A DNA stretch of 64,000 bases from Thalassotalea sediminis (GTDB taxonomy: Bacteria; Pseudomonadota; Gammaproteobacteria; Enterobacterales; Alteromonadaceae), in contig NZ_AP027361.1 of NCBI RefSeq assembly GCF_030295915.1, positions 744,001-808,000 on the forward strand, read 5' to 3'. Shown here piece by piece: positions 49,133 to 51,486 of the stretch. Every line of letters begins with the position of its first letter. Position 1 is the stretch's first letter. The position numbers and the translations under genes are program-made. The notes beneath the pieces are model-generated. The model saw nothing but the letters and a program-made list of their open reading frames with translations, was not told the DNA's origin and made no database searches.

Positions 49133-50656
49133 ATGTCTACAGAACAGTACTTTTCCCAATTTCGCAAAAACATTATTGGTCAACAGCTATCACATGAAAT
49201 TAACGGCCAAACTTTACCTATCGTTTACGCAGATTGGACTGCAAGTGGTCGACTCTATCAACCTATTGAAACGTTTATTACTGAAACTCTTGGCCCATAT
49301 GTAGCAAATACTCATACCGAAACAAATCTTACGGGTGGAGTAATGACGAATGTCTACCATGAAGCTCAGCTTGTGATTAAAAAACATGTTAATGCGTGCA
49401 AAAATGATGTTCTAATAACAGCAGAAGCTGGTATGACAGGGGTTATTAATAAGTTTCAACGTATCTTAAATTTGCGCATTCCGGAGCGTATGCAAGATCA
49501 AGTGCATTTTAATGACCAAGATAAACCTGTAGTTTTTATTACTCACATGGAACATCATTCTAACCAAACCTCGTGGTATGAATGTGATGTTACGTTAGAA
49601 ATTGTTCAACCTGATAGCAACGGATTGCCATCTCTGGAGCATCTTACACAGCTACTTAAGCAATATGGCGATCGTAAGCATAAGATAGGTTCATTTACTG
49701 CTTGCTCGAACGTAACTGGCATAAAAACCCCGTACTATCAGATGGCGGAGATAATGCATGATCATGGTGGTGTATGTTTCGTTGATTTTGCCTGTTCGGC
49801 ACCTTATGTCGATATTGATATGCATCCAGCTAACCCTAAGCAAGCATTAGATGCGATATATTTCTCACCTCACAAGTTTCTTGGTGGTCCTGGCAGTTCA
49901 GGTGTTTTACTGTTTAATAAAGCATTGTATAAAAATAAAGTGCCAGACCACCCAGGTGGTGGTACGGTAACATGGACAAATCCTTGGGGAGAGCATAGCT
50001 TTTTCGACGATATTGAAATGCGGGAAGACGGCGGAACACCCGGATTTTTACAATGTATTAAGACTGCGTTAGCTATTAAAGTGAAAGATGAAATGGGTGT
50101 TGCAAACATTACTGCACGTGAAAACTGGATCACCAACTATGTCATGGATACTTTAGCTCAGTTAGATAATGTAGAAATGTTAGAGTCTGCTATTAGAGAT
50201 CGGTTGGCGATAGTTTCTTTTTACGTTAAAGGTGCTCATTACAATTTAGTGGTTAGATTGTTGAATGATCGGTTTGGTGTACAAACACGCGGTGGTTGTT
50301 CTTGTGCCGGCACCTATGGTCACATTTTATTAAATGTAGACCACGATACATCTTCCAAGATTACTGATCAGATTGATTCGGGCGATTATGCTGAAAAGCC
50401 TGGTTGGATAAGGGCTTCTTTTCATCCTACGATGACAGATAAAGAAGTTAGCTATGTTGTTGACGCAATTAAGCAGGTTAGTGAAAACATTCAAACGTGG
50501 AGTAACGATTACCGTTTTAATCCAGCGTCTGGTGACTTTGAACACAAGAATTTAGCAGTTTCAACGCCATCGTTAGCGCATTTTAATGCCTTGCCGCAAC
50601 AAGCATTAGCAACTGAGCAGCGCTCATTGTTGTCACGGCTTTTTCAACGCGCTTAA
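49133..50656 (+). CDS. Class V aminotransferase, cysteine-desulfurase-like
   Basis: 507 residues. PLP lysine K248 in AIYFSPHKFLGGPG, PLP-ring aspartate D218 in VCFVDFACSAPYV, substrate-loop THMEHHSNQTSW, and RGGCSCAGTYGH with C389 and C391 where SufS-type desulfurases have RxGxxCA. It is about 100 residues longer than SufS or CsdA at its C-terminus. It may mobilise sulfur from cysteine or act on another amino acid. No suf, csd or moa gene is adjacent. Substrate unknown. Confidence 0.85.
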   Translation: MSTEQYFSQFRKNIIGQQLSHEINGQTLPIVYADWTASGRLYQPIETFITETLGPYVANTHTETNLTGGVMTNVYHEAQLVIKKHVNACKNDVLITAEAGMTGVINKFQRILNLRIPERMQDQVHFNDQDKPVVFITHMEHHSNQTSWYECDVTLEIVQPDSNGLPSLEHLTQLLKQYGDRKHKIGSFTACSNVTGIKTPYYQMAEIMHDHGGVCFVDFACSAPYVDIDMHPANPKQALDAIYFSPHKFLGGPGSSGVLLFNKALYKNKVPDHPGGGTVTWTNPWGEHSFFDDIEMREDGGTPGFLQCIKTALAIKVKDEMGVANITARENWITNYVMDTLAQLDNVEMLESAIRDRLAIVSFYVKGAHYNLVVRLLNDRFGVQTRGGCSCAGTYGHILLNVDHDTSSKITDQIDSGDYAEKPGWIRASFHPTMTDKEVSYVVDAIKQVSENIQTWSNDYRFNPASGDFEHKNLAVSTPSLAHFNALPQQALATEQRSLLSRLFQRA

Positions 50657-50663
50657 TTAGGGG

Positions 50664-50917
50664 CTGTTGATCTTTTGAGATTAAATTTTGTTCGAACTAA
50701 ACGCTTTTTGTTCAAGGCGTGAGCGATGTCGCATGGTTATTCCATGTAAATTGCGAACAACGATGAAGAAATAGCGTTTAGCTGAACCCAGAGGGCAGTG
50801 TTTTTTGTTATTTATACGTCGTTATTGCTTTTTCATGTGGAATAACCAAATATTAATCGCAATGCCTTGTCTAAATACCAATAAACTGCTGCAAAAAGAA
50901 ACGCGAAAGATCAACAG
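50664..50917. repeat. 254-bp structured element with 12-bp terminal inverted repeats (MITE/REP-like)
   Basis: CTGTTGATCTTT at 50664-50675 is matched by its exact reverse complement at 50906-50917. Nested inside are CTAAACGCT / AGCGTTTAG (50697-50705, 50773-50781) and GGTTATTCC / GGAATAACC (50735-50743, 50839-50847). No coding frame is convincing. This looks like a non-autonomous repeat of the kind scattered through Alteromonadales genomes; copy number cannot be seen here. Confidence 0.75.
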
Positions 50918-51486
50918 ACTCTAAAGGTAATCATCATTTCGGCTGCCGAACAGTGGCAGTCATGGTGACATATAGGGCACATGTACCCTTGTTTGCTTAG
51001 CGCATTCCATCTATCTGGGTGTTGCTTTACTAAGCTGCCACCACATTTAGTAAAATATTTAACCGCGCTATTACCTGGACTTTGCATCCATAGATGACTG
51101 ACACCGGCTTTCGCACCTTGTTGTTTAACGTTGTCGATGGAAAGCTCAAGTAATTTACTGCCTATCCCATAGCCGCGATAGTGCTCGTCGACAGTATTAC
51201 ATTTAAAGTAACAAACGGATTCGCTTGGTACCGACCATTTGTCGGGGGTGCACCATTGATCAATTTGCCATTGCTGAGCTGAAAATGTAATACGAAAGCC
51301 AACTAAGATTTCGCCATCATAGGCGACAAAGCTACTATTTATGTTGTTTTTTAATCCTTGCTTAAACCACCGTGACGCGCTTTCATTATCCATATAACCT
51401 TCACCATGAACGTGAGTGGCTAATCGGATGACTTGGGAAAAGTCGTCAGGTGTCATTTCGCGATAGTTAATAGTCTTTTTTTGCAT
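50911..51486 (-). CDS. GNAT-family acetyltransferase with a Cys-rich tail
   Basis: 191 residues. GNAT fold with the acetyl-CoA loop YRGYGIGSKLLE (R104-x-x-G-x-G) and a final AVKYFTKCGGS strand-helix. The tail MCPICHHDCHCSAAEM has Cys170, 173, 177 and 179 plus three His, a possible zinc knuckle not usual in GNATs. The last codon (Cys191) and the TGA stop lie inside the terminal repeat of the 254-bp element, so the original C-terminus may have been altered. Substrate unknown. Confidence 0.85.
   Translation of the reverse strand: MQKKTINYREMTPDDFSQVIRLATHVHGEGYMDNESASRWFKQGLKNNINSSFVAYDGEILVGFRITFSAQQWQIDQWCTPDKWSVPSESVCYFKCNTVDEHYRGYGIGSKLLELSIDNVKQQGAKAGVSHLWMQSPGNSAVKYFTKCGGSLVKQHPDRWNALSKQGYMCPICHHDCHCSAAEMMITFRVC

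Follow-up and report, generated by a model that had tools for sequence, protein, structure and literature searches.

Closest described systems

The cores of MITEs are usually regarded as decaying filler. ERIC, a gene-less palindromic repeat at TA, is about 127 bp long; the element described here, from a window of 64,000 nucleotides of Thalassotalea sediminis (the whole stretch of DNA that was analysed), resembles it in being a gene-less palindromic repeat at TA that is spread in related genera, and differs from it in length, measuring 266 bp. Its ends relate it to ISSod6 from Shewanella oneidensis (IS5 family, NF033580): the 18-bp ends including TA are alike, TA is found at both ends, and TAGGGTCTGTTGATCTTT terminates ISSod6 on both sides as well as many copies of the element, the window copy deviating from it by one base at the left end and one at the right. 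An IS of this type in a relative also occupies a YTAR-type target. ISSod6, however, is an 883-bp element coding for a 252-aa transposase, whereas the element is gene-less and its core is unlike the IS. With type II MITEs, as treated in the relevant part of PMC10969869, it shares similarity to an IS limited to the ends, shortness, many copies and a stable fold, and it differs from the MITEs described there in that its fold is backed by cross-genus covariation and its length is nearly constant. QMITE1 and QMITE2 of Coxiella, treated in the same part of that source, are comparable to the element as MITEs with a strongly folding transcript; they differ in the small RNAs that are reported for them, and QMITE2 also in its duplications of 7-9 bp and its ends of 23-29 bp (PMC10969869).

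We are highly confident that the element is a MITE with ISSod6-type ends. It is shorter than 500 bp, lacks a transposase gene, possesses terminal inverted repeats, occurs in multiple dispersed copies and is bordered by a target-site duplication (TA at both ends, and empty sites whose spacing fits 2 bp although they read CA). No description of this MITE family was found among the papers listed from the open-licence literature, and an earlier account may exist; as far as that literature shows, the family is new but its kind is known, the element being a type II MITE with ISSod6-type ends.

Limits of the element and its insertion site

An earlier note, made from the sequence alone, had pointed to a 254-bp non-coding element with perfect 12-bp terminal inverted repeats. 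These repeats are present: CTGTTGATCTTT occupies 50664-50675 and recurs as a perfect reverse complement at 50906-50917, and the two constitute the sole perfect 12-mer inverted pair with a span of 230-290 bp in the window. The palindrome of the proposed extent exists, but the true element, delimited by means of other copies, is larger and reads TA-GGGGCTGTTGATCTTT...AAAGATCAACAGACTC-TA (50658-50923), that is 262 bp between the two TA and 266 bp from TA to TA. The additional internal inverted pairs that had been proposed are real as well (50697-50714/50764-50781, 18 nt at 89%; 50734-50773/50809-50848, 40 nt at 70%). The features of the locus are the following:

49133-50656, plus strand: neighbouring ORF, presumably aminotransferase-like (named from its sequence); its stop ends 1 bp ahead of the TA target
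50658-50659, no strand: TA target duplication, left copy (empty-site comparison aligned by eye; TA ends in other copies)
50658-50683, no strand: outer stem of the consensus fold, 5' side, pairing with 50898-50923
50660-50675, plus strand: left terminal inverted repeat, 16 bp, GGGGCTGTTGATCTTT
50690-50787, no strand: left arm, a branched hairpin of about 98 nt with an apical 5-bp stem
50787-50795, no strand: tiny central hairpin CCC-AGA-GGG between both arms
50795-50892, no strand: right arm, a branched hairpin of about 98 nt
50898-50923, no strand: outer stem, 3' side
50906-50921, minus strand: right terminal inverted repeat, 16 bp, GAGTCTGTTGATCTTT on that strand, with two mismatches to the left repeat
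50911-51486, minus strand: neighbouring ORF, which we take to be GNAT-like from its sequence; it ends inside the right terminal repeat
50922-50923, no strand: TA target duplication, right copy (empty-site comparison)

The right arm contains most of the conserved block GCCTTGT.TAAA...TGC.GCAAAA, which served as core pattern in the wide search. As to coding capacity, the list of ORFs of at least 50 aa shows none inside the element; a transposase gene is lacking, as had been noted, and the DDE transposase encoded by members of the IS5 family has no counterpart among internal ORFs. The element is not entirely "non-coding", however, since the GNAT-like ORF terminates within its right terminal repeat.

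The element sits between convergent genes. The orthologous gene pairs of three congeners (L320-L322) are without it; a fourth congener (L323) lacks it too and has a different spacer. The own flanks plus one TA amount to 27 nt, as does the stretch of the three congeners, and the two align without gaps (by eye). At the target place, the congeners read CA instead of TA, and the case for a TA duplication at the window copy, which the earlier note had wished to see examined, therefore rests on the spacing, which fits it, together with TA at both ends. Over 68 extracted copies (70 loci were taken, two being without an end pair and one too short), the TA is preceded by C or T in 63 and followed by A or G in 58, giving YTAR.

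The GNAT-like gene ends in ..FRVC here, its TGA stop coming from the terminal repeat, and the residues ..RVC and the stop are element-derived; in the three congeners, it ends in ..FDQDA (two) or ..FDQVD (one). This comparison indicates that the insertion supplied the last codons and the stop of the gene. Of 108 flanking ORFs that end at a copy of the element, 29 reach into its terminal repeat, judged solely by a rule of thumb for ORFs; stop codons may thus frequently be provided by the element.

Copies and distribution

Searching the own genome and relatives for further copies, as had been proposed, gave many matches, and the element is neither single-copy nor without similar sequences elsewhere. 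The own genome, a single contig of 3.9 Mb, contains 28 matches (40 of 55 candidates scored), a few of which are two pieces of one copy. Besides the window copy, there are six near-full-length copies at 94-96% identity as well as partial ones. A second subfamily reaches about 66-68% identity in the genome search and, at 268-269 bp, 62-68% to the window copy. Its members L020, L023, L025-L028 and L192-L194 have ends near TAGAGCGTGTTGATCTTT, and end pairs of its type stand about 143 bp apart at 1048563-1048706 and 3278559-3278702 of the own genome.

A search of 59 genomes gave matches in 23, among them the own; all five genomes of the genus have them, the remainder belonging to the family and order, and with few candidates scored per genome the copy numbers are lower bounds. 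All 13 relatives picked from those with hits contain the terminal-repeat pattern. As a search probe, the pattern TGCAGGAGCA was discarded as far too short, matching 293 of 295 genomes. The core pattern was found in at least 120 stretches from marine Gammaproteobacteria, some known solely as MAGs; the matches listed include Thalassotalea, Pseudoalteromonas, Vibrio, Shewanella, Psychromonas, Enterovibrio, Grimontia, Bowmanella, Alteromonas, Catenovulum, Colwellia, Aliidiomarina, Planctobacterium and others. For 99 of 120 core-pattern loci an end pair was obtained (in 15 the core lies close to the locus edge), and 71 of these 99 copies have a total length of 266-269 bp. Given its position between convergent genes, one could take the structure for a chance palindrome or an ordinary terminator, but the copy number and the empty sites refute this, as does the occurrence in many genera, and we consider its probability negligible.

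The element is also present in 13 plasmid or chromid records, and in 12 of them its best place has no annotated gene beneath it, the underlying gene table being incomplete and one of these records having only two annotated features. Spread by phage was considered and rejected: none of 50,697 phage records matches the element, and a single IMG/VR contig has the core pattern. One copy of the same genus (L155, genome G003) is 90-92% identical to Vibrio copies (L260 from Vibrio hepatarius, L258 and L242) and 72% identical to the window copy; this greater closeness to Vibrio suggests transfer between distant hosts.

A probable partner transposase

A relative with many element copies (G025) harbours two IS of 881 bp with TAGAGCGTGTTGATCTTT at both ends, sited at C-TA-G. 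Their transposase is of the IS5 type (NCBIfam NF033580; DUF4096 and DDE_Tnp_1). A viral contig holds an element with TAGGGTCTGTTGATCTTT at both ends whose transposase shares 100% identity with the ISSod6 transposase, and a plasmid of Pseudoalteromonas HL-AS2 carries an 882-bp IS of ISSod6 type, one end of which deviates from the pattern by one base, together with MITE matches. Among the 60 best blastn matches shown, the likeness between IS and MITE covers 20-40 bp at the ends, one match extending over 58 bp at 76%; similarity to the IS is thus limited to the ends, as in type II MITEs. From these shared ends and the shared target, we infer that movement is most likely brought about by an ISSod6-like transposase of the IS5 family acting in trans.

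A search of 14 genomes for the G025 transposase found it in two, one of which has just a 95-aa fragment; neither the own genome nor its four congeners gave a match. A search for a partner IS in the own genome by way of Pfam PF01609 likewise gave no match at E<=0.01. With no transposase of the ISSod6 kind found in these five genomes, present mobility is unproven, and the copies of the own genome were probably moved by an IS since lost. Of the alternative "mobile or RNA-coding" that the earlier note had left, the first half is supported by the many copies, by the empty sites in congeners with their spacing that fits a TA duplication, and by the existence of an autonomous IS type that shares the ends.

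A branched fold conserved between genera

The fold of the window copy is far more stable than that of dinucleotide shuffles (z -7.4 on the plus and -4.4 on the minus strand), none of 200 shuffles equalling it on either strand. For the family fold, a deriving set of 33 rows below 93% identity (window included) was compiled, of which 29 were aligned, L141, L146, L185 and L197 being omitted. RNAalifold gave 75 pairs for these 29 copies, 49 of them with compensatory double changes, and a G·U-free fold gave 109 pairs making up the outer stem, the left arm, the small central CCC/GGG hairpin and the right arm.

The fold was then transferred to 37 other copies and the window row (38 rows). These 37 were chosen among the 99 end-paired copies, come from named genomes, mostly one per species, and all measure 266-269 bp; the test is not fully independent, as five of them are 90-94% identical to a deriving row and genomes may overlap, and conservation of the columns under the mostly right-arm pattern by which they were picked reflects the choice of rows. 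In the transferred fold, 87.6% of cells are paired, against 75.5% in column shuffles, which kinship alone may beat without any structure, and 36-46% with slid partners, a control that retains relatedness. Double changes occur in 64 of 107 pairs versus 47.5 after shuffling, covariation is 0.340 versus 0.128, and none of 500 shuffles attains any of the five measures. The weakest fit is that of helix 8 in the right arm (66% of cells). A fresh fold of the 37 rows returned the same design with 75 pairs, 44 with double changes. The "fixed nested palindromes" of the earlier note, for which it had suggested looking for covariation in the internal stems, are thereby borne out in copies outside the deriving set. 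Two further structures were tried and not accepted. One is the single long end-to-end hairpin that is the MFE structure of the window copy: across the 37 other rows, the pairs unique to it are formed in 69% of cells, as opposed to 86% for those peculiar to the cloverleaf-like family fold. The other is a loop-loop pairing between the tips of the two arms, formed in 111 of 175 cells in an uncontrolled count.

Going by these models, the core fold is kept by matched base changes across genera as distant as Thalassotalea, Vibrio and Shewanella. Some bases that are unpaired in the G·U-free fold are invariant in 29 of 29 rows (columns 63, 106, 107, 110, 170-172 and 216-218); lying in internal loops of both arms, they speak for recognition or selection.

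Arm loss and inserts

Three copies of the own genome (L016, L017, L019) are forms of about 170 bp, in which most of the left arm is gone with one shared junction as aligned. The occurrence of left-arm-less copies with this junction at three sites implies that the short form itself moved and that the left arm is dispensable for movement. Deletions of about 91-98 bp in the left arm, with differing limits as aligned, were found in five copies of other genomes. L204, L222 and L224 are likewise forms of about 170 bp missing most of the left arm. Gains are seen too: inserts of 13-15 bp recur at several places of the arms (L185, L197, L207, L249, L275, L291, L313 and others), giving 281-283 bp.

A longer insert of 46-51 bp occurs in 11 of the 99 core-pattern copies, either in the right arm (L210, L220, L233, L278, L310, L312, L272) or reverse-complemented in the left arm (L256, L303, L286, L211), as well as in three Catenovulum plasmid regions of 370 bp (L333, L334, L335); the window copy is without it. 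An NGGA-tetraloop hairpin with a stem of 5-10 bp is present in 13 of 14 insert sequences, L211 having none, and in one of 148 strand readings of 74 insert-free copies. The second hairpin of the insert has AGGA in several cases. Stems of the insert hairpins vary among genera while GGA is constant, and the arrangement resembles paired CsrA-binding sites. Five inserts read ACAAGGATGT, which agrees with the CsrA SELEX consensus RUACARGGAUGU and with the ANGGAN loop, as given in the part of PMC7652899 dealing with it. According to the same part, most SELEX hairpins have four or fewer contiguous pairs (PMC7652899); insert stems as long as 10 bp are therefore an argument against a CsrA reading. One may picture the family as a mobile scaffold on which DNA hairpins can be exchanged, arms being lost and modules gained, and whose NGGA module would scatter putative CsrA sites or titrate CsrA; this is a long shot, but if true, insert-bearing copies would spread CsrA-binding sites wherever they land and are transcribed.

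DNA or RNA

Transcription offers one explanation of the fold: the element, when transcription from neighbouring genes runs into it, could fold and be cut by RNase III, or could end or stabilise transcripts. The very stable folds (mean z about -8.7) would suit this, as would the window copy, which taken by itself is clearly more stable on the plus than on the minus strand, and the NGGA loops that the insert of some relatives presents on one strand. Over 68 copies, however, the strands are similarly stable (mean z -8.7 vs -8.6; MFE lower on the plus strand in 38). Mismatches within the G·U-free fold, in which this comparison was made, show no excess of G·T over A·C (122 vs 115 in 29 rows; 107 vs 128 in the 37 other rows); in the alifold structure of 37 rows, which allows and by construction favours G·U, they number 145 vs 72. 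In tandem gene contexts, 25 copies lie along and 29 against transcription (102 of 164 distinct copies classed by an ORF rule of thumb, 62 not). Rfam has no match at the gathering threshold for the window and none at E<=1 for 50600-50980. Neither an Rfam match nor, in the G·U-free fold, a strand-specific tolerance of G·U thus marks the element as a structured one-strand RNA; the "RNA-coding" half of the earlier proposal found no support, a one-strand RNA function is not supported, and we regard an RNA role as improbable. As such a function would be expected to break the symmetries of stability, mismatch and orientation, folding at the level of DNA fits better and is favoured.

Selection is not the only process that can produce double changes. 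When replication forks switch template, a quasi-palindrome may be corrected by copying one side of an arm into its partner, which keeps pairs matched, and the double changes would then be purely mutational. That the G·U-free fold has G·T and A·C mismatches in near-equal numbers agrees with this, as do the dispensable left arm and the recurrence of deletions taking most of it, with differing limits, in five copies. Correction of this kind should, on the other hand, have erased the invariant unpaired bases, an objection that is weaker for columns 170 and 171, which are paired in the alifold structure, and the length of 266-269 bp in 71 of 99 copies also opposes it; we rate it as rather unlikely. 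Retention of the fold by selection at the DNA level is a tentative reading, to which we give somewhat less than an even chance.

Taken as a whole, a type II MITE at a YTAR site, moved in trans by an ISSod6-type transposase and possessing a fold that would act as DNA, is in our view a very probable explanation. A short gene-less DNA transposon inserted at the YTAR-type site between the convergent genes, duplicating TA; its ends of about 16 bp were most likely recognised by an ISSod6-like IS5-family transposase from an IS not found in the genome now. The fold might act when the strand is single during replication or when it is extruded as a cruciform, and by pairing both ends and packing the core into hairpins it could aid synapsis or the survival of the element.

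Significance

The element is ordinary in its mode of spread and unusual in the depth of its fold conservation: a core that does not resemble its IS has retained both a branched fold and its length in genera such as Thalassotalea, Vibrio and Shewanella, the base changes being matched doubles. The element can serve as a marker of IS5 activity in the past, and it has minor consequences for genes, such as the new stop codon of the GNAT-like gene. The family lets one ask whether selection or palindrome correction maintains the inner DNA fold of a non-autonomous transposon.
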